From positions 1-42,651 of the IMG/VR virus record IMGVR_UViG_3300047361_000042: a stretch of DNA of 42,651 nt. The stretch is one strand, 5' to 3'. The position numbers and the translations under genes were made by a program. The notes beneath the pieces are model-generated. The model worked only from the letters and a program-made list of their open reading frames with translations. It did not search any database and was not told the origin of the DNA. This document shows positions 2,008 through 41,966 of the stretch, one piece after another; the stretch's first letter is position 1, and every line of letters starts with the position of its first letter. Origin of the DNA: a virus.

Positions 2008-3486
2008 CTAGCTTTGGAACAATACGAAATTGTTAGCAGCTTGAGTAATTAGACATCTTTCAGATAGCCAGTTAACCTGCATAGCATCTAACTGAGAAGT
2101 GTAAACACCACCAGCAGATCCTGTGATCCAGTTTTTGTATCTTCTGTCGTCTCCTTGTGAAGCTCTGTATCTTACGTGCAAGAATGGTCTTCTAATGTTT
2201 GTACCAAGTTGTTGGTCATAAACAGTTGAAGTTCCAGCAGGTATTAATACACCGTCAATGTTATTAACAGCTACACCACCTCTAGTTGACATATCATTTA
2301 GATATTTCCAGCTAGTTTTATAGAAGTCATAAGAACCTCTTCTAAAACCAGAGAAACCTAAATTAAGTGCCATATCTTCAGAGTTTTCGAATAAACCGTA
2401 AGCAACACCACCAGAGAATCCAGCAGAAATTTGTCCTAGCATATCGTCAAAATCTAAATCAAGAGATCTGTTTAAGAAAAGCATGTTTTCTTCAATAGCT
2501 CCTTGAGTATCAAGGTTTTTAAGTACTTGATCAAAGTCACTGATACCAGTTCCAGCAGAGAATCCTGTAAATACATTACCTCTTGCTTGGATAGCAGAAA
2601 ATAGACCTTGAGTACCGTGTGCAGCTACATTAACGAATCCTGGTACATTACCAAGAGCAGCTTGTGCAGTGAAACCATCACCTGCGATAGCTTGTTCACC
2701 TTCAACCATTGACATTTCTAAGTAGTCATCAAAACGTAATCTTGTTTCTGATTCAGACTTTAAATACCATAAGTATCCTGATGTACCATCTTCAGTTGAA
2801 ACTTCTACCCAACCGATTTGAGCCATATCAGACCCATTGATTTGGAATGAATCTTTTATGATAATTGGTTGATTAGAAAATTGAGTAAATCTAGGCTCAA
2901 TTGATTTAATAGCACCACCTGTTTGAGCAGGAGCAGCTGTTCCTTTTGCAAATACAGAACCATAAACAAACATTTTTAAGCTGTTTGTTCCATTTCCTAA
3001 AGCATTCCAGTTAGCAACTTGGAAAGGATAAGCTGTTACTGTTGTAACGCCAGGTCCAGCAGCTACAGCTGTAGCTCCAACAATACCTTTAATAGTAACT
3101 CCTGTTGCAGGGTTCATTACTACAATTGTATCATTTGGAAATATAGCATTTCTAGCAGCAGTTTGATTTACAGCAGCATTTGTTGGGATAGTGATCGTGA
3201 AAGCACCAGCTCCAGTTAAGTTACAGTTTTGGTAACAAATATGTAACCTGTTTTGTTCAGACCAGATAACCTGATCAGACGTCATTGGCATTTCAGCGCC
3301 AACCATTCTAAGAAATCCAGATAAAGTTCTATTACCGTATCTTTCAACTTCTGCTTCATATATCTCAGGAAGATATTGTTGAGCGAAGTCATTAGCTCCA
3401 GCGTTAAACGCTAGATAATTGCTTTGCAACGCAAGTTGCTGTTGTGATGGCGTTAATGCGCCAAACACGGGATTAATTGCACCCAT
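2008..3486 (-). CDS. Major capsid protein (putative)
   Basis: The 492-residue protein has the size and order expected of a major capsid protein: TerL, portal, acidic scaffold-like protein, then this gene. It begins MGAINPVFGALTPSQQ and has a helical segment at 30-60 (QQYLPEIYEAEVERYGN), then alternating beta-rich and helical parts with many Ala, Gly and Asn. Base composition is richer in G and C than in the neighbours, as often seen in highly expressed genes. A two-unit tandem A-rich leader precedes the ATG and a strong terminator follows the stop, both fitting high expression. An HK97 fold is presumed and not shown. Cys83 and Cys87 (CYQNC) are the obvious cysteine pair. Confidence 0.75.
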   Translation of the reverse strand: MGAINPVFGALTPSQQQLALQSNYLAFNAGANDFAQQYLPEIYEAEVERYGNRTLSGFLRMVGAEMPMTSDQVIWSEQNRLHICYQNCNLTGAGAFTITIPTNAAVNQTAARNAIFPNDTIVVMNPATGVTIKGIVGATAVAAGPGVTTVTAYPFQVANWNALGNGTNSLKMFVYGSVFAKGTAAPAQTGGAIKSIEPRFTQFSNQPIIIKDSFQINGSDMAQIGWVEVSTEDGTSGYLWYLKSESETRLRFDDYLEMSMVEGEQAIAGDGFTAQAALGNVPGFVNVAAHGTQGLFSAIQARGNVFTGFSAGTGISDFDQVLKNLDTQGAIEENMLFLNRSLDLDFDDMLGQISAGFSGGVAYGLFENSEDMALNLGFSGFRRGSYDFYKTSWKYLNDMSTRGGVAVNNIDGVLIPAGTSTVYDQQLGTNIRRPFLHVRYRASQGDDRRYKNWITGSAGGVYTSQLDAMQVNWLSERCLITQAANNFVLFQS

Positions 3487-4718: not shown

Positions 4719-7094
4719 CTAAAAATCTACAGGTATTTCACCTTGAGACTCAAAGTCTTGTGGTAACCCATTATTTTGCCTTTGATTTATCATCGCAGAC
4801 TGTTGGGTAGCTTGTAATTTAGTTCTTTTATCTTTACGATCCTCAATATCCGCTTCTTTTTGACTTATTGTTGCTGATTGCATTTGAGCTAATTGTAAAT
4901 CATATTGAAACTGCTCAGCCATTAATTGAGTTTTTATCTGAGCTTCTGTTTGCATCCTTTGTATTTCAAACTGAGACTTAGCTTGTTCAATTTGAACTTT
5001 AGACTGAGTCATTGCTTCGTTTTTCTGTACTTCACTCATGGCAGCTGATTCTGCAGCTTTAGCATTAGCTTGAGCTTGAGCTTGTATTTGAGCTGTTTGA
5101 GCAGCTTGATCTTCTTTTTGTTTTTTAATTCGTCTATATTTTAAAACTTGATTTGCTAATGATATATTTTTTATTTCTCTAATATCAATAGCATCTTCAA
5201 GATATATTTGATTTTGTTGCAAAGCCATTTGAATATTTTGTTCTATCATAGCTTTTTCTTCATCGTCAGGCTCTAAATTTAAATATAAACCAAAATCATA
5301 TAAATGCAAGTCTTTTGCTTCATCTAAACTAGCAGTATTAAATCTACCTATACTAGATTTTAAAGCATTGTTAGTTAATGGAAACTCTAAAACATCTGCA
5401 ATTCTTAATGATATGTTTTCACAAGCTCTAAGTGTTAAATACAAACTAGCATCTAATATGTGTTTAGTAGCTATATTTGAAGCATTGGCAGCCATTTTTT
5501 GCAATCCGACCAACGCGTCTTTGTCTGGTAAACTGCCGTCTCGTGCTTCATTTAGTCCCGTTACGTCTCTTATCATTTGTAGATAATACTGATAAGTGTT
5601 GATCAACGACTGTATTTTTCCATTAGCACTCGATGATTGTAATTCCTGAATAGGTACTTTACCTCTATTAGGATCGCCATCTTGTGTTAAGCTTCTACCA
5701 ACTATACTACCAGTTTGGAAATACATGTTTAACGCTTCTTGTGGATTATAATTTGTTCCATTACCTAAATCAACTTCTGCTAAACCATCTACATCTACAA
5801 ATACACCGTCTGGCACCATCCTTGCAATTACTTGTTGTAATTTTAATGATGTTAATTGTATCATGTCAGCAAAACTAGTCATACGCCCAACTAAAGAATT
5901 TATACGCCCTTGATACATTTGAGGTGCACAAACAACATAATTCATATTTACTTTAGTTAAATCACTATTTGGCCTAGTCATATTTTTTGCTAGCTTCCAT
6001 TCAAGCATCTGTGGAACACCCATTACTTTTACACCACTGTATAAAACCTCTATACTTCTTGAAACTCTATCAAAGTTGTCACTTGGTGGTGGATTAAAAA
6101 AATCTTCTTTTTGTAATGTTTTTTCTAAACCTTGATCAGTCTTTTTTATTTTAAAAACTTGATCAACATATGTTTTATATTCAAAATATAGTAATTGAAT
6201 TAAATCATTATCATAATTTGGATTTGCTATATACCCTTGTCTACCAGGGTATCTAACCATAGTTTCTAACTCTTTATCGGTAAGTTGAGGAAATTGCTTT
6301 TTAATTTCTGGTATTGTTAATGATTTTATTTCTCCTACATACCATAAATCTTCAAAATTAGGATCATTACTATATGAATAAACTAAATTAGCTGGATCCA
6401 CATAATCAACCACTACTCCTTCAGATTTATTAAAACTTGTTTTTACAGCACCAATACCAATTGTAACTATATCTTCAACTAGTCTTTTTTTAGTTAATTG
6501 ATATTTATTAAATGCTAAAACATTATCAATAACTTCTTCTTGTGCTATTTCCATACTTTGCTTGTAATTAAGCTGCATGTGTATTTCTAATTCTTCATCA
6601 CTTTCTGGTATTTCACTTTCTTTATTAAGTAAAAAATTCATACCAGTAGCTTCTTGTAATTTTAAAGCTTGTTCCTTAACTAACATATCTTGCATTAATC
6701 CCTCAGCATAATCAGTTCTTTGTTGTTGTGAAAAAGGATCTTGAGCGTATGCATTTATTTCATATTCTTTAGAAGCTATACCATTTACCACTATATTTAA
6801 AAACTTAGGTATAATAGGTACTGGTTTCCAGTCTAAATTTAAATAAGATAAATCACCATTTATTGATAATTCATCTTTATATTTTTGTACAGGTTGTTCA
6901 CCTCTAGCGTATAAACGTAATCTATTAAAGTTTGTGTATCCTTGATTCCATTTACCACTGTTTAATCTACCTCCTCTAAACCATTCATATTCAATAGCTT
7001 GCCCAACTGCAAGTCCATATTCTAAAGTTTTCTTTTCCGCCTCAGGTACCACCTGACTTGGAAACGCACTGTTAGTAACATTAGTGTCAATCAT
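4719..7094 (-). CDS. Portal protein
   Basis: At 791 residues, this protein sits between TerL and scaffold and overlaps the TerL stop by four bases (ATGA). Residues 40-110 carry the clamp-like opening (GYTNFNRLRLYARGEQPVQK), typical of portals with an N-RL-YA-GEQ pattern. The middle (200-560) is mixed alpha/beta. Residues about 640-760 form a long Gln/Ala-rich coiled coil, matching an extended crown or barrel. It would form the dodecameric DNA gate of the head. The opening resembles portals of crAss-like and related Bacteroidota phages from memory. The C-terminal Gln-rich arm is unusually long. Confidence 0.8.
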   Translation of the reverse strand: MIDTNVTNSAFPSQVVPEAEKKTLEYGLAVGQAIEYEWFRGGRLNSGKWNQGYTNFNRLRLYARGEQPVQKYKDELSINGDLSYLNLDWKPVPIIPKFLNIVVNGIASKEYEINAYAQDPFSQQQRTDYAEGLMQDMLVKEQALKLQEATGMNFLLNKESEIPESDEELEIHMQLNYKQSMEIAQEEVIDNVLAFNKYQLTKKRLVEDIVTIGIGAVKTSFNKSEGVVVDYVDPANLVYSYSNDPNFEDLWYVGEIKSLTIPEIKKQFPQLTDKELETMVRYPGRQGYIANPNYDNDLIQLLYFEYKTYVDQVFKIKKTDQGLEKTLQKEDFFNPPPSDNFDRVSRSIEVLYSGVKVMGVPQMLEWKLAKNMTRPNSDLTKVNMNYVVCAPQMYQGRINSLVGRMTSFADMIQLTSLKLQQVIARMVPDGVFVDVDGLAEVDLGNGTNYNPQEALNMYFQTGSIVGRSLTQDGDPNRGKVPIQELQSSSANGKIQSLINTYQYYLQMIRDVTGLNEARDGSLPDKDALVGLQKMAANASNIATKHILDASLYLTLRACENISLRIADVLEFPLTNNALKSSIGRFNTASLDEAKDLHLYDFGLYLNLEPDDEEKAMIEQNIQMALQQNQIYLEDAIDIREIKNISLANQVLKYRRIKKQKEDQAAQTAQIQAQAQANAKAAESAAMSEVQKNEAMTQSKVQIEQAKSQFEIQRMQTEAQIKTQLMAEQFQYDLQLAQMQSATISQKEADIEDRKDKRTKLQATQQSAMINQRQNNGLPQDFESQGEIPVDF

Positions 7095-9298
7095 CTATTA
7101 ATTATTTTTGATTCATTACCTCTATTATCATATTTAGAAAAATTTAAATTTACTTTTTCTTTAATAATTTCAGCTATTGGTCTATATTTATTTTTATTAC
7201 AAGCCATAATTGCTAAACCTGAACTAATAGATGCATCGTGCTTTGTTCTATTGTTTATATCAAATGCAGCCCAGTCTTCTAATGTTCTTTGAAAATACAT
7301 CGTACCATATTGTTCATTGTTGTAACCTACAAACATTTCAATATATGATTCAATTGCTGCAGCGTGAGCTTGTTTAACATCTTCACTTGAATTAGGTATA
7401 CCACCTATTTCTTTTTCAGTTACTGACATTTTATGTATTGTTTTATCAGGTCTATTCATAGAAAACCCTCTATAACCTCTACGTTTAAAATGATACAGTA
7501 ATCTAGGTTTATTATTTTCTGCAAGAAGTGGCATGCTATAAAATACGCAAGCCATAAGTACATCTTCAAAAAATATTTCTGCGGTTTGAGGTCTAGCTAT
7601 ATATTCTAAAAAAAATAAATTAGGTGGGCAATCATCCATAGTGAATTTAGTTAACCCGTGCAGTGATCCTTTTGATCCTCTACCATCTACGGTTCCTGAT
7701 ATATCATATGAGTCACAGCCAAATGCTCCCATATGTTCATTAGCAGGATATTTTTTATTATTTTTTAAAATAATTCTATTTTGTTGACCTAGTTCTGGTA
7801 TCCATGAAACTAAAAATCTACCTTGTTGACTTGGCGAAAAAACTACTCTTGAGTCTTTTACTCCACCTTCCCACTGGAAATTACCCTTAGTTACAACTCC
7901 AGAATATTTTAAATCTTCATTATAATCTATTTGTTCGTAAATTTTAGTTAGATTAAATAAAGATTGTTTTGTTTCATCTCTGAATGCATGTTTTTCTGTA
8001 CGTGGAAACTGTCTATATAATTCATTAAGCGCATCAGGATCATCCTTAAGGCCATCTACTTCATTTTCCCAATGCTCGATAACACCGATTTCAATTGGGA
8101 AACCGTCTGGCCCCTTCTTTTTTTCTTTGGGTGTCTCGAAGACAGGTAGTCCATAAGAATCAATGTATCCTTCGTAATTCCATTCCATAGGTATGAACAG
8201 GCTATATAATCCCGAGCTAGTCTGCCCATTTCTGTTTCTTCTGGTAACGTCTGAATCATCATATATTTTTTTATAGTTTCTACCACCTTTATCAAGAGCA
8301 TTGCTCGTTGATCCCATCATACACTTACCTATAATTCTAGAACCTAATCGTAAACAAGTTTTTGTAACCCTCCAGTTATTTAATATATTATCAGGTTTTT
8401 CCCATTTACCACTTTCATCATGTACAAGTAGTTTTAATTTTTCACCATCATAACTATTGTCCCCTGTGTTTTTCCAGTCAATAGTTGTATCTAATCCTTC
8501 AAGTTCTTCTAACTGTTCATTGGTGTCTAATTTTTTTCTAGTGAATCTACTGGCTGGGACTCTGTATGCAAGCTCCGTCTTCGGCCTATCCATACCGTCT
8601 TGAATCGGTTTGAAGAAGAACGGATAATTAACGGAGATGGGTACGATTTTGTCGGTAAACATTTTCTTAGCATCCGACCCTGACTTTGATAAGACACCGA
8701 ATCTAGCATCGCTTGATATTGTGGCCATGTTAACAGCTTCGCCCGATGCCATAAAAGAGAATCCTGAACGCCTGTTCTTAAGATAACACATTCCGTAGCA
8801 CCTTGTATCTGCTTTGCAAGCTTCCCAGAATATATAGAATAATCTGTTTGCTTCCCTAAAGTCTGCTTGCCCAACATCAATTTTTGACCATTGCAAATAC
8901 ATGTAGTGAGTACCAGTAATATAGATAGCTTTACCTTTATTAGTAAACCAATAACCTTCGTGGCGTCTAGCAAATTCTCTATCAATATACGCATACCATT
9001 TATTTTTAAAATCATCTGGATATTGTTTCCAGTCAAATATTGTTTTTATTTTTTTTAATGTTTTAGGATACTCATGAACAGTCCACCTGTCGTTTTCTTT
9101 ATCAACATTATTTTCTTTTGGTAATGCTATTTTAAGATTTTGTATTTCATATATTTCACCTATTTGTCCAGTTTGAGATATAACAATAACATCATATTCT
9201 TTATTATAACCATAATCCCATTTTTTAGATTTATTTAATCTTTTTATTACGTGGGGTTTTATATGATCAATTACTTTATATAAAGTTTGCTTATACAT
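7091..9298 (-). CDS. terL: Terminase large subunit
   Basis: ATPase-nuclease motor that packages DNA. Visible motifs are a deviant Walker A (KNRRSGFSF, residues 174-182), a Walker B (LKLLVHDE, Asp294-Glu295), a coupling-type GSTSN motif near 329-333, and nuclease acidic residues at Asp529 (GCDSYD) and Asp688 (KHDAS). At 735 residues it is longer than most TerL proteins, with an N-terminal extension of about 100 residues before the ATPase. The long form with an Arg-rich, Gly-poor P-loop recalls TerL of crAss-like phages. Codons between about 8.09 and 9.0 kb are visibly more GC-rich than those on either side, suggesting mosaic ancestry. The start ATG overlaps the preceding gene's stop. Confidence 0.92.
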   Translation of the reverse strand: MYKQTLYKVIDHIKPHVIKRLNKSKKWDYGYNKEYDVIVISQTGQIGEIYEIQNLKIALPKENNVDKENDRWTVHEYPKTLKKIKTIFDWKQYPDDFKNKWYAYIDREFARRHEGYWFTNKGKAIYITGTHYMYLQWSKIDVGQADFREANRLFYIFWEACKADTRCYGMCYLKNRRSGFSFMASGEAVNMATISSDARFGVLSKSGSDAKKMFTDKIVPISVNYPFFFKPIQDGMDRPKTELAYRVPASRFTRKKLDTNEQLEELEGLDTTIDWKNTGDNSYDGEKLKLLVHDESGKWEKPDNILNNWRVTKTCLRLGSRIIGKCMMGSTSNALDKGGRNYKKIYDDSDVTRRNRNGQTSSGLYSLFIPMEWNYEGYIDSYGLPVFETPKEKKKGPDGFPIEIGVIEHWENEVDGLKDDPDALNELYRQFPRTEKHAFRDETKQSLFNLTKIYEQIDYNEDLKYSGVVTKGNFQWEGGVKDSRVVFSPSQQGRFLVSWIPELGQQNRIILKNNKKYPANEHMGAFGCDSYDISGTVDGRGSKGSLHGLTKFTMDDCPPNLFFLEYIARPQTAEIFFEDVLMACVFYSMPLLAENNKPRLLYHFKRRGYRGFSMNRPDKTIHKMSVTEKEIGGIPNSSEDVKQAHAAAIESYIEMFVGYNNEQYGTMYFQRTLEDWAAFDINNRTKHDASISSGLAIMACNKNKYRPIAEIIKEKVNLNFSKYDNRGNESKIINR

Positions 9299-9573
9299 TA
9301 TTTAGATCGTCTTTCTGCAAAACCTCCAAAAGCTTCAGTTTTCTTTTCTTCTTTTGGTTTTTCGTTTATCATATCCTCTTCTTCTTTAATACGATTAAGT
9401 ATTTCAAAAGCGTCAAATATAGCTAGCTTTTTAGTAGCTGCTGCATTTTTTAATCTATCAGCTGATATATCATCATCAGAATCAACAATAGCTTCTTTAG
9501 CAACTTTTATTAATTCCTCAACCGCTTTGTGCCCAGCTAGGATTATGTTCAACTTCGTTTCCTTGACGTTCAT
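9298..9573 (-). CDS. Putative terminase small subunit (91 aa)
   Basis: A small charged, mostly helical protein encoded directly upstream of TerL, with the two reading frames sharing the stop/start bases. Residues 30-65 (DDDISADRLKNAAATKKLAI and the following FDAFEILNRIKEEE) form amphipathic helices; the last 25 residues are a Lys/Glu-rich tail. Position and size are those of a small terminase subunit, which would recognise DNA for packaging. No HTH is obvious, so the assignment is by context. Its 5' end overlaps the preceding gene by 56 bases, longer than the usual ATGA overlaps here. Confidence 0.5.
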   Translation of the reverse strand: MNVKETKLNIILAGHKAVEELIKVAKEAIVDSDDDISADRLKNAAATKKLAIFDAFEILNRIKEEEDMINEKPKEEKKTEAFGGFAERRSK

Positions 9574-10123
9574 ATTTAATTACAATATCATTAGATTTCA
9601 TACAGTAAAGTCTTTTACCATCTACAATAAAATCATATTCTCCGCCTGGTGTGTAACCTACAAGGTCTCCCTCGCTTATTTCTAGCGCTTCTAATGAACT
9701 ATTACCGTATTTTAGTATACCAATAAGGAATTGCTCTAAATTATTATGTATATCAACTTGATCTTTAATTGGAGCAATAAAACATCTATTGCCAAAAGCT
9801 TTCCATTTGTCTTTTTGTTTATATAAATAAACTTGATCTGGTTGAACAAAATAAAGATTATCTTTAAAATATGCTTTACTATTTTTTTCTTCACCTCTAA
9901 CGTTATACCATCTTCTGAATACATTATGATGTATCATAATTAAATCTCCTACTTTAATAGAAGTTTTGTATACTATTGGAACCTGTATAACTTTAGCAAT
10001 ATTATTTACTGATTTAAAAGTTTCAATTTTAGTGTTAATTATAAGGCTTTTGTCACCTACTTTTACTTCATTATTATATCGTTGGCCATAAGGCTCAACA
10101 ATAAAATCAAATAAACTTTTCAT
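9518..10123 (-). CDS. Tandem GroES-like (Cpn10-fold) protein (201 aa)
   Basis: The second half matches the GroES plan piece by piece: GNRCFIAPI (111-119) like GroES strand 1, LIGILKYGN (133-141) like the 'GEVLAVG' strand, LEISEGDLVGY (147-157) like 'VKVGDIVIF', and DGKRLYCMKSNDIVIKYE (168-185) like the C-terminal 'EEVLIMSESDILAIVE'. The first half repeats part of this plan: IKVGDLIMI (56-64) and LYFVQPDQVYLYK (90-102). I therefore infer two Cpn10-like barrels in one chain, with a HHNVFRRWYN insert (65-74) in the first. It could be an adaptor for GroEL or a barrel used for something else. The GroES-like assignment comes from motif order, not a search. Confidence 0.6.
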   Translation of the reverse strand: MKSLFDFIVEPYGQRYNNEVKVGDKSLIINTKIETFKSVNNIAKVIQVPIVYKTSIKVGDLIMIHHNVFRRWYNVRGEEKNSKAYFKDNLYFVQPDQVYLYKQKDKWKAFGNRCFIAPIKDQVDIHNNLEQFLIGILKYGNSSLEALEISEGDLVGYTPGGEYDFIVDGKRLYCMKSNDIVIKYERQGNEVEHNPSWAQSG

Positions 10124-10350
10124 TAATACTCTAAATCATACTCAACGGATATTGCCATGTTAGAATTAAACTTCTTCCACGGCAATACTTCGTCTTGTTT
10201 TTTGATAAAAATATTATAAGAATTATCTTTTTTATCAGAAAGTATATGTGATATAATGTGACCACCATATACCGACTGCCCTATCGAGTAGTGCATAGCA
10301 TCGGTTTTGTAGTCAGAACCAATACTGATCTTTCTAATAACTGAAGACAT
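10123..10350 (-). CDS. Hypothetical protein (75 aa)
   Basis: A short beta-rich protein (KISIGSDYKTDAMHYSIGQS and following strands) with no motif I recognise. It overlaps its neighbours on both sides as TAATG, so it is translated with the coiled-coil protein before it and the tandem GroES-like protein after it. I recall similar short proteins next to GroES-like genes in marine phages, but a function cannot be given. Confidence 0.65.
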   Translation of the reverse strand: MSSVIRKISIGSDYKTDAMHYSIGQSVYGGHIISHILSDKKDNSYNIFIKKQDEVLPWKKFNSNMAISVEYDLEY

Positions 10351-10604
10351 TATTTCTTATCCTCTTCTTTTTCAATAGGTTCATATGTTCCATCTTCTAA
10401 ATTAATATTGATAGAGCCATATTCTTCTTCTAGTTCTTTTTTGAAGTCTTCAGTCTTTTTGTTTTCTTCATGGAACTTCCCTAATACTGCGGATTTTTGG
10501 GCTTCTAAGAAACCTACTTCATTTAAGAGTTTGTTCAACTCTTTTTGAAAGCCTTGAATCTTTTCTAATTGGTCTTTGGTAATCATTGATTTTACTTCAC
10601 TCAT
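10350..10604 (-). CDS. Small coiled-coil protein (84 aa)
   Basis: Residues 8-65 form a continuous heptad-patterned helix (QLEKIQGFQKELNKLLNEVG and onward); the tail is acidic (EPIEKEEDKK). It is preceded by a leader of tandem AATTT units with no Shine-Dalgarno. It heads the short chain that leads through the 75- and 201-residue genes to the terminase. Role unknown; such proteins are often oligomerising adaptors or assembly factors. Confidence 0.6.
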   Translation of the reverse strand: MSEVKSMITKDQLEKIQGFQKELNKLLNEVGFLEAQKSAVLGKFHEENKKTEDFKKELEEEYGSININLEDGTYEPIEKEEDKK

Positions 10605-10656
10605 TTTAATTTAATTTAATTGGTTATTAATGTATTAATATAGTTACAGGTTTTCT

Positions 10657-11118
10657 TTACTTTTTAAATATACTTGTAACCTTTTCACTACTTCGTCCGC
10701 CAAAATAGGCTAAAACTACGGCCATCATTACTTTTTCAAATGTATCGTTCCACGTAACACCTATGTTAAATGGTATTGATTCTACACTATCTAATATTCC
10801 AGCTAGTGAGAATATAACAATACACCACACTAAAACTAATGGGCGTACATTTTTAGAAAGCCATGAATCTGATATTGAGTCGGCTTGCCACCTTGAAGTG
10901 ACGGCTTCCATTTCTTTGTTTTGTTGTTCAAATATAAGTTGTTGTAATTTTATTTTATCTTCACCACTTACATCAGATTTACCAATAGCAGCAATAGCTT
11001 CTGCTGGTGAACTAACACCACTTAGAACACTGCCTAATGCAGGGTTAACTAGTGATGCAGCACCAAACAAAAGTTTTCCTACAGTGGTATCTTTAAACTT
11101 TTTTTTAGGTTTAGACAT
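10657..11118 (-). CDS. Holin, 3TM family (153 aa)
   Basis: Hydrophobic segments lie at about 14-35, 91-110 and 128-142, separated by a charged helix containing SRWQADSISDSWLSKNVRPL, the signature region of three-TM phage holins of the gene-transfer-agent release type. It would permeabilise the inner membrane at lysis and let the endolysin out. The M15 peptidase encoded about 2 kb upstream in the same transcript fits as its partner. The C-terminus is cytoplasmic-type and basic (KVTSIFKK). A strongly basic N-terminus (KPKKKFKD) precedes the first segment. Confidence 0.8.
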   Translation of the reverse strand: MSKPKKKFKDTTVGKLLFGAASLVNPALGSVLSGVSSPAEAIAAIGKSDVSGEDKIKLQQLIFEQQNKEMEAVTSRWQADSISDSWLSKNVRPLVLVWCIVIFSLAGILDSVESIPFNIGVTWNDTFEKVMMAVVLAYFGGRSSEKVTSIFKK

Positions 11119-11171
11119 TATTTAGAACAAACTCCTGGTTTGTTGTAAGGTTTTTTAGGTTTAATTTTCAT
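11118..11171 (-). CDS. Micro-ORF, 17-residue basic peptide
   Basis: ATG-initiated frame encoding MKIKPKKPYNKPGVCSK. Its stop codon overlaps the holin start region, and its start is three bases from the next micro-ORF stop. Such tight packing in series with three further tiny frames argues that it is translated, but at 17 codons chance cannot be excluded. Confidence 0.4.
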   Translation of the reverse strand: MKIKPKKPYNKPGVCSK

Positions 11172-11174
11172 AAT

Positions 11175-11264
11175 CTATTTTTTCTTTTTCATTAAAAAAG
11201 CTGGTAATTTCTTTTTATTTTTTGATTTTGAACTACTTTTTTTTGGGGAGCTTTTGTACGCCAT
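11175..11264 (-). CDS. Micro-ORF, 29-residue Lys/Ser-rich peptide
   Basis: The peptide is nearly half Lys and Ser, with a short hydrophobic patch (LPAFLM) before a terminal KKKK. It is packed between two other tiny frames with gaps of two or three bases. The composition suggests a nucleic-acid-binding or membrane-active peptide. I recall similar 'KKLPAFLMKKK' peptides in marine phages, unassigned. Confidence 0.5.
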   Translation of the reverse strand: MAYKSSPKKSSSKSKNKKKLPAFLMKKKK

Positions 11265-11266
11265 AA

Positions 11267-11350
11267 TTATTTGTGTTTTTTAAGTTTAGCTAATTTTATA
11301 GCTTTTTTGTCTATTATTTTCTCTACTTCTTTTTTTTTCTTTTTAGCCAT
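11267..11350 (-). CDS. Micro-ORF, 27-residue basic helical peptide
   Basis: Begins MAKKKKKEVEKIIDKKAIKL and is predicted helical by eye, with a Lys-rich face. It sits two bases from one neighbour and one base from the next in the micro-gene run upstream of the holin. Function unknown; high positive charge suggests nucleic-acid or membrane contact. Confidence 0.5.
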   Translation of the reverse strand: MAKKKKKEVEKIIDKKAIKLAKLKKHK

Positions 11351-11351
11351 G

Positions 11352-11507
11352 TTATTGTTTTTTACCTGGAAACATTTGATTAAGTTTTTCTTTACGCTGT
11401 TGGCAGCCACAGGGTATGTTTAAACCCTGTGACACTGCATCAACAACTTTTTTAATACCAGTTGCTTTAGTGAATGATTCTATTTTATCACCTAAGCCTT
11501 TATTCAT
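11352..11507 (-). CDS. Small CGC-motif protein (51 aa)
   Basis: The frame begins MNKGLGDKIESFTKATGIKK and contains a CGC pair in NIPCGCQQRKEKLNQMF. The pattern 'GLGD-IE-FTKATGIKK-V...CGC-RKE-LN' is one I recognise as recurring in small proteins of marine phages, always without known function. The two cysteines are likely metal- or redox-related. Its start overlaps the stop of the preceding gene (TAATG). Inside the gene lies a perfect 8-bp inverted repeat (11408-11415 / 11424-11431). Confidence 0.65.
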   Translation of the reverse strand: MNKGLGDKIESFTKATGIKKVVDAVSQGLNIPCGCQQRKEKLNQMFPGKKQ

Positions 11508-11872
11508 TATGCTTGAACAAATGATCTCCAATATAATCTTAGTCCAGTTCCGCCACTATCTAGTCCTAGTGAAACTGAAGATACAACCCCACCTGGATTA
11601 GCTTTCATAGCATATTGAATAGATTGTTTTAAAAGTGGAGAAGTTGATGTTGGAGTTCCAGCTGTACCTGTTGCAGCTGTACCAGCTATCACAGTAATTA
11701 CATCAGCTGCTCCAACTGAATTAAGTTGAACTGTAGCTGTAGTTGCTGAAGCTTGAAAAACTCCACTGATTAAATCTACGGGAACTAAATTGATCCCGTC
11801 TTGAAATGTAGAAGCGCCAGCCAAACCTGAGTTAGCGCTGTCTGTTACGTTAAATGAAATGTACTTTGCCAT
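11507..11872 (-). CDS. Putative minor structural / decoration protein (121 aa)
   Basis: A beta-rich, Ala/Gly/Thr/Ser-rich protein with almost no charge in residues 35-85, ending with aromatic LRLYWRSFVQ. It resembles small virion surface proteins in composition. It has its own leader of three tandem 10-bp A-rich units, the same type as the capsid gene, which hints at strong translation. No named family is recognised. Confidence 0.5.
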   Translation of the reverse strand: MAKYISFNVTDSANSGLAGASTFQDGINLVPVDLISGVFQASATTATVQLNSVGAADVITVIAGTAATGTAGTPTSTSPLLKQSIQYAMKANPGGVVSSVSLGLDSGGTGLRLYWRSFVQA

Positions 11873-14001: not shown

Positions 14002-14445
14002 TTATCTATTTTTATCTTTATTTACATTTTCTATAGATGTTATCATTACTTTATCTATATAAGTATTACCTTTCATTATTTTATTTCTAGCAACAGAAGT
14101 TGGTATATCTTCTGTGCCTAGCATAATACGGTACATACGACTTATTAGTTGTTTACACTTGAAGGAAACTTTATAGATATTATACTTTTGCGTTGTGCGG
14201 TTGTGTTTTCTCCAAACCGTTATCCAACCTTCTTTAAGTAATCTGTTCCAGCGTCTGTTGTCCCAACTATAAGAATACGTACCGATTTTAAAATCTTCTC
14301 TAGTGAAAAAATTCATGCAATCGAAATATATAAGTAATTCTAAATCTGCATCATTAAGATTATTATTTTTGCAAGCCCATTTTCTAATTATACGATAATG
14401 TTTTAAAAGATTTAAATCTTTTATATCTTTAGCTTCTAATCTCAT
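14002..14445 (-). CDS. Putative winged-helix DNA-binding protein (147 aa)
   Basis: Residues 20-100 look like a winged helix of MarR/PadR style: helices over NLNDADLELLIYFDCMNFFT, then a recognition-type segment WNRLLKEGWITVWRKH and a beta wing (KYNIYKVSFKCKQL). The protein is basic. It is translationally coupled to GroES (ATGA overlap), so it may be a regulator carried in the chaperonin operon. I recall similar proteins in marine phages, unassigned. Fold is inferred from pattern only. Confidence 0.5.
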   Translation of the reverse strand: MRLEAKDIKDLNLLKHYRIIRKWACKNNNLNDADLELLIYFDCMNFFTREDFKIGTYSYSWDNRRWNRLLKEGWITVWRKHNRTTQKYNIYKVSFKCKQLISRMYRIMLGTEDIPTSVARNKIMKGNTYIDKVMITSIENVNKDKNR

Positions 14446-14702
14446 AATACAACCACAACATGATCTACTTTTACCACGCTGTAAATGTCTTTTTTTATTT
14501 CTATTTGATGTGAATTATTTTTATCAAAATATATAATATTACCTTTTTTTATACCTAAAACTTCATTACCTGCAGATATTACAGTTGCTTCTTCATACCT
14601 TATATCTTCTCTTTGTTTTTCTGCTAACAATAACCCGCCTTTAGTTTCAGACACACCTTGTTTTACAGCTTGTATAATTAAATTTCTACCTATTGCCTTC
14701 AT
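14442..14702 (-). CDS. groS: GroES-type co-chaperonin lacking the roof hairpin
   Basis: The 86-residue protein has the Cpn10 order: strand 1 KAIGRNLIIQAV (2-13), a mobile loop ETKGGLLLAEKQ (19-30) with a GG-LLL anchor in place of the usual GG-IVL, EATVISAGN (38-46), GIKKGNIIYF (50-59), and a C-terminal strand pair. Between EATVISAGN and GIKKG only about four residues remain where bacterial GroES has the roof hairpin, so the dome opening should be wide, as in T4 gp31. It overlaps groL by 17 bases and would cap the phage GroEL or the host one. Confidence 0.85.
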   Translation of the reverse strand: MKAIGRNLIIQAVKQGVSETKGGLLLAEKQREDIRYEEATVISAGNEVLGIKKGNIIYFDKNNSHQIEIKKDIYSVVKVDHVVVVL

Positions 14703-16233
14703 TAATTCTTAAGTTATTAATTATACAATCAGTTGATAATATTGTTGTAGCTACTGAAGCTGCATTTTGTAATGCACTTTTAGTCACGAGTAAGGGATCA
14801 ATAATTCCTGACTCAATCATATTTACCATATCTCCTGTAACAACGTTTAAACCATATCCAAACTCTTTTATTTCCGAATAATCTTCAATACCAGCATTGT
14901 TTAATATAGTTAAAAAAGGTGCTTTAATTGCATCATACAAAATTCTTTGTGTTGGTTGTACAGCAATAAACTTTGATGCATTTAATAAAGCAATACCACC
15001 TCCTGGTACTATACCTTGTTTTATAGCAGCTTTAGTAGCACAAATAGCATCTTCGACTCTAGCTTGTTTTTCTTGTAATTCTACTTCTGAGTTAGCTCCT
15101 ACTTTTACAACAGCTACTTTACCAGAAAGTCTTGCTAATCTTTTTTCTAATCTTACAACTATTAAAGGATCTTTAGTTTTAGCTAAATCTTTTTCTAGTT
15201 TGATTATAATATCTTTTACTTTTTGATTATTAGGTTTTGCTTGTAAAATTGTTTCAGTTTGACTTGTTATACTCTTTAAACATTCACCTAAATGTTCAGG
15301 ACCTATTAAATCTATATCATCACCTAAGTCTTCGTTTATAATAGTAGCTCCTGTAACTAAAGATAAATCTTTTAACACTTCTTTTTTACTTATACCGTAA
15401 ATAGGTGCATCAATTACATTTACCTTAATATTACCTTTTATTTTATTCATTGCTAACGCAGACATAACTTGTGTATCTATATCAGCTATTATTAGCAGCG
15501 ATCTATTTTGTTTTATAGCGTATTCTAATACGTTTTGTATTTTTCTAACAACATCAACCTGTGATTCAACTAATAAAACTAAAGGATTATCTAATTCAGC
15601 TGTAGTTGTTTCTTCGTTTGTTACAAAATGAACATTTTTTAAACCTCTATTGTATTGAATACCATCAATAAGTTCATAATTTGTTTCAGGTAATTCAGTA
15701 GGTTCTAACATTACTACTCCGTTTTTACCAGCTGCTCTAAAAGCATCTGCAATAATTTTACCTAAAATAGGATCATTGTTTGTTGATATAGTTGCAACTT
15801 GATCTATCATGTCGCCTTCAACAGGAACAGCTATATCTTCTAAATATTGTATAGCTTGTTTTGTTGCTGTTTCTATACCTTGTTTTATATCTCTTGTTGA
15901 AGCTTTTGATTTGTAAGCTTCTTCTAAAATAGCATGAGCTAATACCGTAGCGGTAGTAGTACCATCTCCAGCTTCTCTCACTGTTTTTCTAGCCGCTTCT
16001 TTTAAAAGAGTTGCACCCATATTTTCTACTGGATCCAACAGTGTAATAGCCTCTGCTACAGTTACACCATCTTTTGTAATAAGTGGTTTACCAGTATTGT
16101 CTTCTAACATAACACACTTACCACTAGCCCCAAGAGTGGAGCTAACGGCTTGTGTAAGTTTTTTAATACCAGCAAACACATTGTTTTTAGCATCTGAACC
16201 AAAGCTCAGATTTTTTACAATTGCATTTGACAT
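14686..16233 (-). CDS. groL: GroEL-type chaperonin, phage-encoded
   Basis: Full-length Cpn60 of 515 residues. ATP-site motifs are intact: LITKDGVTVA (51-60), GDGTTTATVL (89-98) with Asp90, RVEDAICAT (392-400) with the catalytic Asp395, and PGGGIALL (410-417). The TLGPKG loop of bacterial GroEL reads TLGASG (33-38), losing the proline and lysine. The apical domain (about 190-375) keeps LLIIA and the hydrophobic client-binding segments. The C-terminus ends NNLRINEGNR with no Gly-Gly-Met tail. It probably folds virion proteins, such as the capsid or large fibres. The leader consists of TTTRA pentamers. Confidence 0.93.
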   Translation of the reverse strand: MSNAIVKNLSFGSDAKNNVFAGIKKLTQAVSSTLGASGKCVMLEDNTGKPLITKDGVTVAEAITLLDPVENMGATLLKEAARKTVREAGDGTTTATVLAHAILEEAYKSKASTRDIKQGIETATKQAIQYLEDIAVPVEGDMIDQVATISTNNDPILGKIIADAFRAAGKNGVVMLEPTELPETNYELIDGIQYNRGLKNVHFVTNEETTTAELDNPLVLLVESQVDVVRKIQNVLEYAIKQNRSLLIIADIDTQVMSALAMNKIKGNIKVNVIDAPIYGISKKEVLKDLSLVTGATIINEDLGDDIDLIGPEHLGECLKSITSQTETILQAKPNNQKVKDIIIKLEKDLAKTKDPLIVVRLEKRLARLSGKVAVVKVGANSEVELQEKQARVEDAICATKAAIKQGIVPGGGIALLNASKFIAVQPTQRILYDAIKAPFLTILNNAGIEDYSEIKEFGYGLNVVTGDMVNMIESGIIDPLLVTKSALQNAASVATTILSTDCIINNLRINEGNR

Positions 16234-17610: not shown

Positions 17611-18093
17611 TTAACAGGTTGGATTAGTATATGTTATTCTTCCGCTTGCATCAACTACAAAATCATTAGCGCATGTTGTGTAATCATAATTGTATGTTCC
17701 TCTTTGATTACTCAATGGTGTAGGGTTATTTAAATTAGAAATACTTTCAAAACCTTGAGCACCAAGTGAATTAACCCATGTTTCACCATTTGTCCACTCT
17801 GCTGTTATAAAATAAACAGTTATAGGCACATTAGGAGGGGTTTGAGTCCCATCGTAGTATGTTGCTGTAATAGATGTAAAATCTGAACTAAAAGCTGGAC
17901 CATATGGAGGGTTTGAAGAGCAAGGAGAATTGTTCCAAGCTGGATAACTTACTCCTGAACCAGCCGCTTGGCCAGAATTCATTAAATCATACATATGTAT
18001 AGGACCGGTAATTGAACCACTAGAGCTATAATTATTATAATATAATTCTTTAGCTATTCCTAACATTGATATATTTGTATTTGGTACTGCCAT
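17611..18093 (-). CDS. Putative fibre-associated protein (160 aa)
   Basis: The N-terminus (MAVPNTNISMLGIAKELYYN followed by SSSGSITGPIHMYDLM) resembles short virion proteins in which 'P-TNISM--I' opens the chain. The rest is Ser/Tyr/Asn/Pro-rich with four cysteines (two in CSSNPPYG and TTCAND, one terminal). It overlaps the stop of the 1519-residue fibre gene by one base, so the two are co-translated and may work together. Confidence 0.5.
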   Translation of the reverse strand: MAVPNTNISMLGIAKELYYNNYSSSGSITGPIHMYDLMNSGQAAGSGVSYPAWNNSPCSSNPPYGPAFSSDFTSITATYYDGTQTPPNVPITVYFITAEWTNGETWVNSLGAQGFESISNLNNPTPLSNQRGTYNYDYTTCANDFVVDASGRITYTNPTC

Positions 18094-21000
18094 TATTTAA
18101 TTTTTTTCTTTAGTTCTTCTATTTCAGCTTTTAATTCTTTAATAGCTTCGACTAGTATTGGTGTTATACCTTGATGTCTCATTGATAGCATACCGTTGTC
18201 ATTTTCTCTAACAAGTTCAGGTAAAACTTCTTGAACGTCTTGAGCTATAAATCCTATATCTTCTTTTATATCAAGTATACCTTCTGATTTTTCTTTCCAA
18301 TCAAACGTTACACCTTTTAGTTTCATTGTTTTTTCTAAAGCATTTTCTACAGGTTTTATATTTTTCTTTAATTTTTTATCTGATGGAGAACCGTATGCAA
18401 CAATATCACCAAGTATAGTCAAAGTACCACTTGAGTTTAATTTACCTGTTTGAGCCGGTGTTGATCCTGTTCTAAAACAAACTGCATAACCAGATATTGT
18501 AGGCCCTTCATTTGCTTGATCATAAAAAGTTGCTGTACTAGTTGTAGGATTTGAGTGATTAGCTCTAAACCTATATGAATCAGTAACAGCGTCTCCAGTT
18601 ATTGTAAGATCTCCAGTATAAGAACCAGACATTGTAATATCGTTTGCATTAGCCGTTATACCGTTACTACCAATAACATTTAATGTAACACCACCACTTG
18701 TTCCACCACCAGTCATACCTGTACCAGCGGTCACGCTAGTTATATCACCTGTTGTTGGTGGAGCTGTCCATACCAAATTTATAGAACCTGAAGCTTTTGA
18801 TAGATAATAACCTGTTCCAGGTGCTGCGGTTGTTGGCATTCTCCAATACGTATTAGCTATAGTTGAAGTTGCAGCGGGACCAACTAACTCTAAATTTCCA
18901 TTACCATATAGCTTAACTAATGTGTCAGTTACCCTAGCATTTCCACTATTTGAATTTAAATATTCGTTTATAATTGCAAGATAACGAAGTTTATTATCAT
19001 CTGGTGTAACAATACCTGGATTAAAGAAAATTTCATTTTCTCTGCTTCCACCAGAATTATTATAAGCAAAAGCCATACCTTGATTGTTTATAGGTGCCGC
19101 GTTTGCTGCGTTACCAGCCACATACAAATAACCATCAGATCCAGAACCATTCATAATTATTCTTTGATTTGTGGTATCTCCTCTTTGTGTGACTGATTGT
19201 AAATCGTCAGCTTCTGAAGTTAAATACCCACTGTCATTAGTCCACATGGATATATTACCTGATTTGTTGGTTAAAGTACTTGTACTTACGTTAGAAACTA
19301 AAGTTGAACTTGAACCAGCTGGTAATAACATTGTGTTAGTTACACCAGCACTATGAGGCTGAGCAGATAATGTTTGACCATGACTATTATCATAACAATT
19401 AAGCTTTATTTTTGCATCTACTGAAGATCCATCACCTTTTATTGTTAGTATAGCTCCAGAAGGTACTATTTCATCAATAACAGGAGAGGTTAATGTTTTA
19501 TTAGTTAATGTTTGAGTACCTGTTTTTGTAACTACGGTGCTGTCTATAGAAAATTCTTCATTTGATAAACTTAAACCTGTTCCAGCCGTATATTGTGTGT
19601 CATCATTAGGTGGTGTAGCCCAAGCGTTATCACCTCTTAAAAAAGTTGAACTACTAGCTGTTCCTGACGCGGATAAATCTAAAGTTGTTAGAGCCGAAGC
19701 AGCATCAGGTGTTGTTTTTATAAAAGTTCCAGCTGTTAACTGTATTGTTGATGCAGTACCTGTGTTTGGTGTTATAGTTACATTAGTGTTATTACTACCA
19801 GGAGCTGACAAACTAATAGTATAAGTTATAGGTGGTGTATCGCTATCAGCTCTCCAAGCTGGTACGCCACTTGCGTTTGTTTTCCAAACTAAATTAGCAT
19901 CTGTAGCTGCTGGAGCGGCAACATAACCAGCAACAGTTACTGCATTTGGAATCCATGGTGGTACACTAAAACTACCATCACCATTTAAATAATATGTTCC
20001 TCCTTGTGTTCCAGCAGCAGGCGCAGGCACAAGACCAGCTGTTCCCGCCACATTAGCTGTAGAAGAAACAAAATCATCATATGTTGTTCCAGTAGGCACA
20101 ACCCATGTTGCATCAGCTCTTAAAAATTTATCAGCATGAGGGTTTGGTAAAATAGGTACTAAACCAGCTGTACTTGTTGTAACAACACTATAAGTAGTAT
20201 TAGGTGATGTTAAAGTCATTAAATATGGATCTGTCGTAGTACCTGCTCCTGTTAAAGCAGTTCCTAAAGTTCCTGTTGCAGTTTCGAATTTTAAAAATTC
20301 ATTATTAAGTAGTGTTTTATTTACAGGCGTACCTTGTGTATCTCTTACTTTCCATTGATAACTTCCAGCTGCACTGTTAATAGTAAAAGCAGTTGCTGAA
20401 GTTCTAGTTACTGTAGTCGCACCTGATCCGGTAATAGTTATATCATCAGGACCACCACTACCAGCTAATCTAAGTATAGGGTTACTATTTGATCCACTAT
20501 TTTGCTCTACAGATAAATCATATGTATTTTGAGTATTTGTATCAGGAGAGGTAAGCGTCATTATATAAGGATCGCTTGTACTACCAGAACCTGTAAGCGC
20601 TGTACCTAATGATCCTGTAGCTGTAACAAATTTTAAATATTTTTCGTTATCAACTGTTTTATCTAAATCTGCAAAATCTCTAACATACCATTCAGTATTT
20701 TCTTGAGTATCAGTCCAAGGTACATTAGCAAACATTTTTTCCGAATTCAACTGTATTGCATAATTTCTATTTGCAGCGTCTGTAGTATATCCTATTTGTA
20801 CTCCACCTCTAGTACCATCTGCGGCAAGTGGAAGAGTGTATGTTCCTGGTGGAACATCCCAAGTATTATCTCCTCTTAAAAATGTAGTTCCATCTTTGGT
20901 TCCAGTTGCTGATAAATCTATTGTACCAACAGTTACAGCACCAGTTGCGGCTGAATTTTCTATTCCAGCAGATATAAATGTACCATTAGCATTTGTAAAT

Positions 21001-27242: not shown

Positions 27243-29186
27243 CTAAGCTTGATATGAAATTATTTTACAGTTCCATCCGTGTGCATTACTATGCCACCCT
27301 GTAAATGTAATCGTTATGTTATTTGTTCCACCATTTGTTGATACAGATATTGCTCCACTACCAACAACAGCTGTTTGAACAAACCCAACAATACCATTTC
27401 CTATGTTAGTGTTACTTCCATTATCCCTCCAGTATATAAACCCATTGTTAACTTTACTTTGCCAACCTGTAACTTGTATTTCACATTGACCACCTTGAGG
27501 ATTGTTTCCAAAAAGTGTAACAGGATTAAAAGTATAAGTTCCATTAGCTCCTTGATAACCAATATTTAAAACTCTAGGTGTGTTTAAAATAGTTTGTAAA
27601 GTGTTATCTCTTTGAAATTGTTTATCACAAATAGAATATCCGTTAACATCTAAAGGTTGTGTAGGCGCTCCAGTTGCAATACCTACTTTAATATCACCCG
27701 CGCCTGTATTTTGAAAATTAACTTCTCTACTAGCTCCACTAGACCACCCAATATTTCCTGTAGTTCCGTCTGAAGATATATCAAACACGCTAGAACCATA
27801 AACATACATTTGTAGTCTAGGTGTTCCACCAGCAACTGTTTCTATTAACACTTGTCCATTTGTAGGGTTAAGTACTGCAGAGTCTGTTCCAAAATGAACA
27901 CCTCCATTAACGTGTAAAGTTGCGTTAGGCAAATTCGTCCCGATTCCGACGTTGCCACTATTACTCATATACATTACATTAGTGTTGAGACCACCTGCAT
28001 TATTACCTGTATCAAACTGAAGACCACCGTTATCTAATCCTTGTATTCTTGCTAAAGTTCCACCAGGATTTGTAAAACTTATTAATGAATCTAATCCATC
28101 TGTTGAATTATGCAGCTTTATCATATCTTCAGCCGTATTCTGAATTACTAGTTTATAACCTGTAGGCGAATCCGTTCCGATCCCGACGTTACCTACCTTA
28201 TCTATACGCATTTGCTCAGTTGAAGCAGAACCACCTGTTTGTGTCCAAAAAGTTAATGCAGAACCACCATTACCATTAGATTCTTGATGTACAGAGTTAA
28301 TTCTTGTTTCAACTAATTGACTTGCTGAACCACTCCAGTACCTACCACTCATTCTAATTGAGTTTTGTATTTCATTACTGTCTACTAAACTTGCGTCATA
28401 ATTTCTCATTATAAGCGTGGTTTCACCAGATTGTCTTCCAGATCCTACATTTAATATACCATCAATATTTACATTTGCTCTGTTGTTATTAGCATTAAGC
28501 CCGTTGGTATTCATAAAATGAAAAGTAGTGTCTACATTACCACCACCAGGTGTTGTTAGTGGCATAAACGTTACCGTAGGTGCTCCACTATTATAACCAC
28601 CGTAAGTCATTCTCACTTGATCATAAGCAGAACTATCACCAGCATTACTTAATCTAAAACCTAAAGTTGTGCCACCAGCCACTTCAAGCTTACCATCAGG
28701 CGAATTCGTTCCGATTCCTACGTTGCCTGAGGTGTCGATTAAAAATGGAGTAATTGTAGTTGCGCCCACTCTATTTATACGAAATGTACCATTTGTTCGA
28801 GAATACATACCCCATCCTTTATCATCATTACCATCACCTTGAACTAAAAATAAGCCGGTGTCAGCATAATTCCCTTGCTTTATTGTCAATATAGCACTAC
28901 CTAACACACTCTCTATACCTATCATTACGTTTCCAACAGTATCTATACGCATTTTTTCTGTGGGAGTTTGATTACCGGTTTTAAAATGCAAGGGATAATT
29001 AACAACATCTAGACTTGTAGTATTAGGACTAATAGTCATTTTTCTTCCAGATGAACCTATAAAATCTGAATCTCCAGTTACTTGAAGTAAAGCAGAACCT
29101 GTTACACTCGTCGCTGTTGCCCCAATTAATACATTGCCTCCAGTTGTTACTAGGAATTTATTATTTATATTAGATAAATTAGCCAT
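27243..29186 (-). CDS. Tail fibre-like protein with type-B anchor, no S74 (647 aa)
   Basis: Opens MANLSNINNKFLVTTGGNVL, almost identical to the neighbouring 608-residue fibre over the first dozen residues. The body contains four or five 'GNVGIGTNSPDGKLEV' type motifs, each encoded by a DNA stretch that is well conserved and richer in GC than its surroundings. The last 100 residues form a separate domain (NGGTNNITITFTGWHSNAHG at its end). No S74 chaperone. Probably an accessory or alternative receptor-binding fibre. Confidence 0.75.
   Translation of the reverse strand: MANLSNINNKFLVTTGGNVLIGATATSVTGSALLQVTGDSDFIGSSGRKMTISPNTTSLDVVNYPLHFKTGNQTPTEKMRIDTVGNVMIGIESVLGSAILTIKQGNYADTGLFLVQGDGNDDKGWGMYSRTNGTFRINRVGATTITPFLIDTSGNVGIGTNSPDGKLEVAGGTTLGFRLSNAGDSSAYDQVRMTYGGYNSGAPTVTFMPLTTPGGGNVDTTFHFMNTNGLNANNNRANVNIDGILNVGSGRQSGETTLIMRNYDASLVDSNEIQNSIRMSGRYWSGSASQLVETRINSVHQESNGNGGSALTFWTQTGGSASTEQMRIDKVGNVGIGTDSPTGYKLVIQNTAEDMIKLHNSTDGLDSLISFTNPGGTLARIQGLDNGGLQFDTGNNAGGLNTNVMYMSNSGNVGIGTNLPNATLHVNGGVHFGTDSAVLNPTNGQVLIETVAGGTPRLQMYVYGSSVFDISSDGTTGNIGWSSGASREVNFQNTGAGDIKVGIATGAPTQPLDVNGYSICDKQFQRDNTLQTILNTPRVLNIGYQGANGTYTFNPVTLFGNNPQGGQCEIQVTGWQSKVNNGFIYWRDNGSNTNIGNGIVGFVQTAVVGSGAISVSTNGGTNNITITFTGWHSNAHGWNCKIISYQA
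27928..28727 (-). repeat. Dispersed 29-bp GC-rich repeats encoding NVGIGTNSP
   Basis: Three copies (27928-27956, 28165-28193, 28699-28727) in this gene, and a diverged fourth at 26175-26203 in the next fibre, are nearly the same length and sequence at the DNA level. Their GC content is visibly higher than that of the surrounding DNA. They encode the turn motif NVGIGTNSP. Conservation at synonymous sites suggests gene conversion or recent spread. Confidence 0.65.
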
Positions 29187-33788: not shown

Positions 33789-33814
33789 CCAGAATAAACT
33801 AACTAATACAATAT

Positions 33815-33981: not shown

Positions 33982-34027
33982 TAAATGTAACTAATAAACT
34001 AAATAATAATAAATAAAATATAATACT

Positions 34028-40571: not shown

Positions 40572-41212
40572 TGTCACATTATGTATCAATACCGCGTCAC
40601 TTATATTATTTAAACAAGAGGCGGATTGTATACAGACGTAATCCAATAACAGATAAGCCTACATTAGAGTTTGAGTACGGTAAATTTTATGAAGAAGGTA
40701 CTTATGAATGTTATGATCTGTTTCGTAGTAAAGCTAAAATTACTACATACAAATCATTAAAATGGCATCTGTTAGTCTTGTGGTATTTAAACCCACAACT
40801 AGACATGAATGAGTTTACAAAGCTATCTGAAACTATAGCTAATTATAAGTATGGATTTATTGCGTTTGATATACCTCCAGAATTACTTAAAAGAATAATA
40901 TATGATGTAAGCATGTGTGATCTTGAAGAACCACCTAAAAATAAACTAAGAAAAGTTATATTTAATGACTATTGCTCTTTAACTCTGTCAGAAAAATTAA
41001 CTATTGTAGGTCAATTAATAGGTAGATCAAAAAGAATACATGAAGATGATATTTACCAATGCATGTTAGATATAAATGACATGGGTAAAAAAATAACTAT
41101 AAATAGACTTGCAGGCCTGTTGAATTGTTCTGCTAGAACTATACATAGAAATATGGGCTATGAACTTAAAAAAGAAAAAGAACTTTTAAATCAATCAAAT
41201 GAAAAAATATAA
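40571..41212 (+). CDS. Putative HTH DNA-binding protein (213 aa)
   Basis: Residues 174-196 (KITINRLAGLLNCSARTIHR and on) form a clear helix-turn-helix. The N-terminal part is mixed, with aromatic and basic residues (HYVSIPRHLYYLNKRRIVYR), and a middle helical stretch, LSEKLTIVGQLIGRSKRIHE. It overlaps the sigma-factor gene by 14 bases, so the two are made together. It could be a transcription activator, a sigma partner or a replication initiator. The pairing with the sigma gene makes a regulatory role most likely. Confidence 0.6.
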   Translation: MSHYVSIPRHLYYLNKRRIVYRRNPITDKPTLEFEYGKFYEEGTYECYDLFRSKAKITTYKSLKWHLLVLWYLNPQLDMNEFTKLSETIANYKYGFIAFDIPPELLKRIIYDVSMCDLEEPPKNKLRKVIFNDYCSLTLSEKLTIVGQLIGRSKRIHEDDIYQCMLDINDMGKKITINRLAGLLNCSARTIHRNMGYELKKEKELLNQSNEKI

Positions 41213-41966
41213 TATACCTAATTATATTCGTTATAAAAACGATTTAATAATTAAACTAAAACTAATAGAAGATATTGATGTTAAATATTTAAGTCAGGAA
41301 CAATTGCAATGGAAATTTATGCTATTAGTAGAAAACATAGCTCGTAAATTCTCTACAACACAACAAGCATCAGGTGTTATGAGTATTAATGATCTTATAC
41401 AAGAAGGTAATTTAAGCTTAACTAAAGCTATTAGAAAAATAGACTGGGTTAGACTAAGTGAATCAGATGATCAAGAAAAAACATTAAAGTCTTTTTTATC
41501 TAAACGTATTAAAGGTGGTATAAGACGTGCTGTTGATATAAACAGAGGCGATATAAGAATACCTGAGCATAAACTTAATGAAATACGTAAAAACAATGGT
41601 AAAGATCAAAAGATGGTTGCTATGTTTTTTAATAGTATGTTTTTATCTATTGATGATAAACCTAAAAACACTGATGATGAAGAGTCTATGATATATCAAA
41701 TAGCAGATAAATCAGAGCCTTATAATATAGGTTTATTAAATGTTTATTTAACTAGTTTATTAAAAACTCATTTAAACGAAAAAGAATATGAGGTGTTAAG
41801 ATTAAGCTATGGTTTAGACTGCGAAAAGCATTCAGCTAATAAAATAGCAGAGATCTTAAACATTGAAGGAAGCAGTGCTTATGTACGTGTTTCAGAGCTT
41901 AAAAAGCAAGCTGTAGATAAATTAATTGATAGTGTAGATCACTCGCAAGTGATTGATTATCTGTAG
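41199..41966 (+). CDS. Phage sigma-70-like factor (255 aa)
   Basis: The order of sigma regions is visible: region 2 (38-115), with SINDLIQEGNLSLTKAIRKI as the core-binding part and SFLSKRIKGGIRRAVDIN as the -10-recognising helix; a short region 3 (GDIRIPEHKLNEIRK, 117-131, like 'IRIPVH--E'); and region 4 (191-243), where YEVLRLSYGLDCEKHSANKI leads to an HTH ending SAYVRVSELKKQAVDKL. It should redirect host RNA polymerase to phage promoters; the seven-copy element is a candidate target, or the late promoters near 33.5 kb. A T4 gp55-like role is possible but region 4 is better kept here. Confidence 0.82.
   Translation: MKKYNIPNYIRYKNDLIIKLKLIEDIDVKYLSQEQLQWKFMLLVENIARKFSTTQQASGVMSINDLIQEGNLSLTKAIRKIDWVRLSESDDQEKTLKSFLSKRIKGGIRRAVDINRGDIRIPEHKLNEIRKNNGKDQKMVAMFFNSMFLSIDDKPKNTDDEESMIYQIADKSEPYNIGLLNVYLTSLLKTHLNEKEYEVLRLSYGLDCEKHSANKIAEILNIEGSSAYVRVSELKKQAVDKLIDSVDHSQVIDYL

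Follow-up and report, generated by a model that had tools for sequence, protein, structure and literature searches.

Bacteriophage T4 relies on the GroEL of its host and contributes gp31, a co-chaperonin without roof loops that is believed to help the GroEL–gp31 complex fold gp23, a protein of ~56 kDa (PMC6318259). Phages EL, OBP and AR9 encode GroEL-like ATPases of their own, which have no co-chaperonin; in OBP and AR9 these assemble as single rings (PMC9598537). Some phages carry both GroEL and GroES, according to a passage of PMC7185714 that cites Marine et al. 2017, and both are reported for Maribacter phage Panino (PMC11590407). Elemovirus (Flavobacterium phages vB_FspP_elemo), a podovirus of Bacteroidota, has a GroEL with an overlapping GroES, and a 'chaperonin cpn10' some 180 residues long is encoded immediately upstream of where TerL lies. 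Callevirus (Pervagoviridae; Cellulophaga phages phi38:1 and Calle), in whose family 'chaperonin cpn10' is a core protein (PMC8776804), encodes GroEL, a small Cpn10 and a ~195-residue 'co-chaperonin GroES' before TerL. Outside phages, the Cpn60/Cpn10/Cpn20 system of chloroplasts forms mixed lids of single-domain and tandem-domain subunits (PMC5780408).

The DNA analysed here is a virus record of 42,651 bases from a marine phage (hereafter the window, meaning the whole stretch). It resembles the chloroplast system in that it holds one barrel, one single lid and one predicted tandem lid, known in this case from genes and models; such a three-part set (barrel, lid and double-length lid) is otherwise described from chloroplasts. 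GroEL–GroES pairs were known from phages, and what is added here is a predicted tandem lid whose gene keeps its place next to that of the terminase across several groups of phages. Related contigs mostly reach 53–70 kb, so the window probably represents only part of a genome. The closest TerL is that of MW202828 (63%), followed by those of Flavobacterium, Cellulophaga, Maribacter and Tenacibaculum phages; judging from these relatives, the phage probably infects a member of the Bacteroidota. The features considered below are the following:

2008..3486, minus strand: virion structural protein of 492 residues and 53.2 kDa (phrog_13704, head and packaging), likely the major capsid protein
7091..9298, minus strand: terminase large subunit (TerL), next to the tandem-lid gene
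9298..9573, minus strand: 91-residue open reading frame between the tandem-lid gene and TerL, overlapping the former by 56 nt, perhaps a small terminase subunit
9518..10123, minus strand: second co-chaperonin of 201 residues, a predicted tandem double-GroES (Cpn20-like; phrog_13932), upstream of TerL
14002..14445, minus strand: protein of unknown function, 147 residues (phrog_17028), with a 4-nt ATGA overlap with groES
14442..14702, minus strand: GroES (Cpn10), 86 residues, ATG start, overlapping groEL by 17 nt (Pfam, PHROGs)
14686..16233, minus strand: GroEL (Cpn60), 515 residues, 55.4 kDa, ATG start (Pfam, PHROGs)
41199..41966, plus strand: sigma-factor-like protein in the rightward block (phrog_351; Sigma70 regions 2 and 4 below cut-off), a candidate late-gene regulator

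A first-pass annotation of the window had described a full-length GroEL with intact ATP-site residues overlapping a GroES by 17 bases in the late arm, and all of this was confirmed: both open reading frames start with ATG and lie co-directionally in the late block, and Pfam and PHROGs agree on them. GroEL matches PF00118 over residues 26–506 (2.3e-58), i.e. a full-length Cpn60 domain, as well as groEL in PHROGs (2e-130). It retains the GDGTTT nucleotide loop together with Asp52, Asp87 and Asp398 (E. coli numbering), three residues found without exception in 79 of 79 GroELs of its viral clade. The small GroES matches PF00166 over residues 2–85 (4.9e-9) and GroES in PHROGs (3.5e-10), and keeps the mobile-loop motif as TKGGLLL (mostly TxGGLxL across the clade). 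In its AF2 model (pLDDT 86.7), the low-confidence loop at residues 11–30 is the mobile loop, and GroES chains are among the Foldseek matches of this model. The roof beta-hairpin of E. coli GroES corresponds to a 9-residue gap in the alignment. This hairpin, widespread in co-chaperonins without being a defining feature, is also absent from T4 gp31, another roofless phage co-chaperonin, which appears among the Foldseek matches of both lids of the window; it is thus dispensable for co-chaperonin function.

At least 303 candidate stretches with GroEL relatives were found in IMG/VR, the best 80 of which (66–88% identity) were examined. The small GroES gene comes right after groEL, in the same order, in all 80, so that these loci do not match the far more divergent, co-chaperonin-free EL/OBP/AR9 type. 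The two genes overlap by 17, 20 or 23 nt in 73 of the 80, a conservation showing that the overlap is no chance artefact; in Elemovirus, by contrast, it measures only 1 nt. Purifying selection acts on both genes (dN/dS of 0.03–0.18 for groEL and 0.05–0.14 for groES in seven pairs), the ratio being well below 1 for groEL, groES and the 201-residue protein alike. In the listed long contigs of the clade, groES is followed immediately by the 147-residue open reading frame, which is possibly a fourth partner in the operon. A search of the window for the CIRCE heat-shock operator, allowing up to 3 mismatches, found none.

The annotation had also held that complete pairs are rare in phages, which our searches contradict. 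GroEL relatives are present in 283 of 50,697 phage records, all below 60% identity (about 42% for the best-ranked), and eight of the nine GroEL phages of other lineages that were searched whole have a Cpn10 match (above the Pfam cut-off in six). Given these figures and the literature cited above, complete pairs are already known and not rare. Note that in Bacteroides phage DAC19, where a GroES gene (2218-2481) lies just upstream of GroEL, both are annotated as 'hypothetical protein'.

Near-identity to a single host genus, which the annotation had named as the mark of a very recent accidental capture, was not seen: among the GTDB species genomes scanned, the best bacterial GroELs are only about 36–40% identical and come from many phyla. 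In a tree of 63 GroEL proteins, a branch supported at 100% separates the viral clade from all other sequences, and the stem of the clade measures 1.4 changes per column. This low identity and the tree rule out a recent capture of the pair from a host, for which no evidence was found, and in view of the 303 or more viral relatives and of a dN/dS of about 0.1 we give practically no credence to an accidental acquisition without a selected role. The GroELs of Elemovirus (about 40% identical to that of the window) and MW202828 may be sisters of the viral clade, as judged from an SH-aLRT of 91 that carries a long-branch warning. The same 63-protein tree, whose branches are long, traces the origin of the phage GroEL to no particular bacterial phylum.

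A residue comparison between 79 clade members and 80 bacterial GroELs revealed changes in the apical groove, where Y199, Y203, F204, L234, L237, L259, V263 and V264 were checked. L234Q, V263A and V264M occur in 79 of 79 clade GroELs (the window GroEL likewise having Gln at 234), Y203H occurs in 76 of 79, and Y199 is replaced by Leu or Ile; F204 and L237 are kept. As residues 203, 234, 263 and 264 belong to the GroES- and substrate-binding apical residues, pairing cannot simply be transferred from E. coli to the phage GroEL. Two further differences lie elsewhere in the protein. The GGM-type tail, present in 76 of the 80 bacterial proteins, is absent from all 79 clade GroELs. In addition, two segments involved in ring–ring contacts are shortened: segment 424–436 typically has 6 residues in the clade versus 13 in bacteria, and segment 453–471 has 14 versus 19. 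The window GroEL likewise lacks the tail and has the shortened segments. A single-ring GroEL has been made by mutating R452, E461, S463 and V464 (PMC5575113), positions that fall within or next to the shortened part of the clade protein. By these features of its sequence, the clade GroEL is specialised, and the shortened contact segments, together with the location of these four residues, suggest a single ring or weakly paired rings.

The chaperonin inventory of the annotation stopped at the GroEL–GroES pair, which stands; the second co-chaperonin, at 9518..10123, had been missed. This 201-residue protein matches phrog_13932, 'co-chaperonin GroES' (5.5e-27). Its AF2 model, built from 57 aligned sequences, has a pLDDT of 85 and a pTM of 0.77, and its low-confidence blocks lie at residues 21–40, the place expected of a GroES mobile loop. 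When this model was compared with the PDB by Foldseek, Chlamydomonas Cpn20 came first (7ekq_R; 210 columns, probability 1.00, E 1e-5) and Cpn23 second, followed by GroES/Cpn10 chains; the TM-scores of about 0.5 indicate that the domain arrangements are not identical. Only six matches reached E 0.001 in a library of viral models; among those with a name, 'Chaperonin cpn10' of Cellulophaga phage phi18:3 ranks best. By hhalign, the second domain is recognised as GroES (probability 94, with unrelated controls near 0–1), and the first domain gives no GroES signal in the same profile comparison (probability 4). The first domain being GroES-like by predicted fold only, we term the protein a predicted tandem, Cpn20-like double-GroES lid, rather than a proven one. 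The first loop contains a conserved hydrophobic tripeptide (LII, LIL or LVL) of the kind by which GroES anchors.

A PDB profile search with the 201-residue alignment gave no significant match, and an internal duplication was not borne out, since comparing the profiles of the two domains with each other produced no signal. Weak single-sequence matches to BamB extend over no more than 49 residues and disagree with the fold search, which points to Cpn10/Cpn20; on these two grounds they were judged fortuitous. Although Cpn20 is the best fold match in the PDB, identity over the structural alignment is 13% and no specific sequence similarity to chloroplast Cpn20 was found; the predicted tandem arrangement is likely convergent with that of chloroplasts. 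In existing records, the protein appears as 'hypothetical' or under the labels 'co-chaperonin GroES' and 'chaperonin cpn10'. As no description of a phage tandem lid as such was found in the literature searched, it appears to be undescribed so far.

The tandem-lid gene adjoins TerL in 151 of the 153 loci that contain both genes. All three genes (GroEL, GroES and tandem lid) were present in each of the 17 clade contigs of 33 kb or more whose full length was searched (G012 left out). Among the tandem-lid loci listed, 27 of the 28 that extend far enough upstream or have a detected GroEL contain both GroEL and GroES. The three genes also occur together in Callevirus, Elemovirus and MW202828, and Gundel_1 has none of them. 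In the nine GroEL phages of other lineages, a search run without a positive control gave no match to the tandem lid. Cellulophaga phage phi46:3 (Bacelvirus, NC_021792) encodes a small Cpn10 (28569-28790) and, beside TerL, a tandem lid (41804-42400); GroEL was searched for in this genome and not found, so its two lids presumably work with the GroEL of the host. As shown by this comparison of lineages, the tandem lid is fixed in position, whereas the GroEL–GroES cassette moves or is missing. An open reading frame of similar size occupies in phi46:3 the place of the 91-residue frame of the window.

These observations bear on whether the tandem lid is a partner of the phage GroEL at all. It could instead cap the host GroEL, or be an assembly factor of the packaging module unrelated to chaperonins, an explanation that we consider less probable but to which we assign appreciable weight: the gene content of phi46:3 makes use with a host GroEL credible, the lid keeps its place while the cassette moves, and Chlamydomonas Cpn11/20/23 occur with ClpP (entry 7ekq), which means that GroES-like domains can cap other machines. 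Yet in the clade of the window the tandem lid co-occurs with GroEL and GroES wherever contigs are long enough, and the tripeptide of its first loop resembles a GroES anchor. We treat it here as a putative lid of the phage chaperonin.

As to function, we favour, with fair but limited confidence, a chaperonin that is dedicated to the phage, has roofless lids and folds late phage proteins, the likeliest client being the capsid protein of ~53 kDa. The phage would supply its own group I set, comprising GroEL, the small roofless GroES and the tandem double-GroES lid. An unfolded chain would be bound by the phage GroEL, and ATP would drive the capping of GroEL by a lid devoid of roof loops; the chain would then fold in a chamber open or enlarged at its top, as proposed by analogy with T4 gp31 and gp23. 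Folding of the head protein would thereby become independent of host GroES, as T4 manages with gp31 alone while still using the host GroEL that the phage of the window replaces with its own. The capsid protein is a plausible client by virtue of its size and of the T4 analogy. The annotation had proposed the capsid or the very large fibres as clients: the former suggestion stays plausible, but whole fibres are unlikely, since the two long ones measure 94.7 and 157.4 kDa and both end in Peptidase_S74 intramolecular chaperone domains.

The annotation had drawn these clients from the late-arm position of the pair, which proves to be a weak clue because the pair sits elsewhere in other lineages. 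In Callevirus (Calle_2), where GroES precedes GroEL with one gene between, the Cpn10–GroEL pair lies between the genes for a DnaQ-like protein and a 3'-5' exonuclease, in the replication module; in Elemovirus, transcription of the pair runs counter to that of the late genes. The Callevirus arrangement makes an early client possible, and the chaperonin might accordingly serve early or replication proteins, or host proteins under the stress of infection, in place of the capsid. We hold this to be rather unlikely for the window, in whose clade the pair is located within the late block, between the fibre and lysis genes and in conserved order, and because the tandem lid adjoins TerL, or is one small gene away from it, in every lineage that has it.

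Small and tandem subunits may possibly be mixed in one lid, as in chloroplasts; a seven-domain lid could, for example, be made of three tandem subunits and one single subunit. A bolder proposal, which we put forward as speculative and on balance improbable, is that Bacteroidota phages independently evolved a chloroplast-like three-part chaperonin with a single-ring GroEL and mixed roofless lids, tuned to the capsid. The set is small and expressible, and lends itself to asking why a seven-fold barrel should take a lid with an even number of domains, whether a capsid protein can be folded by a single ring and the lids that belong to it, and by what means a virus frees the folding of its head from the host chaperonin.

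Finally, some related contigs deviate from the common arrangement. At L060, in-frame stop codons interrupt GroEL (10001-11555), and the gene for the tandem lid is likewise in pieces, owing to sequencing errors or decay. Contig G007, one of the long clade contigs, has a fragmented GroEL and a fragmented tandem lid. The viral contig G012 (40 kb) contains two groEL–groES pairs (17982-19433 and 33791-35242), which could reflect a duplication or a joined assembly.
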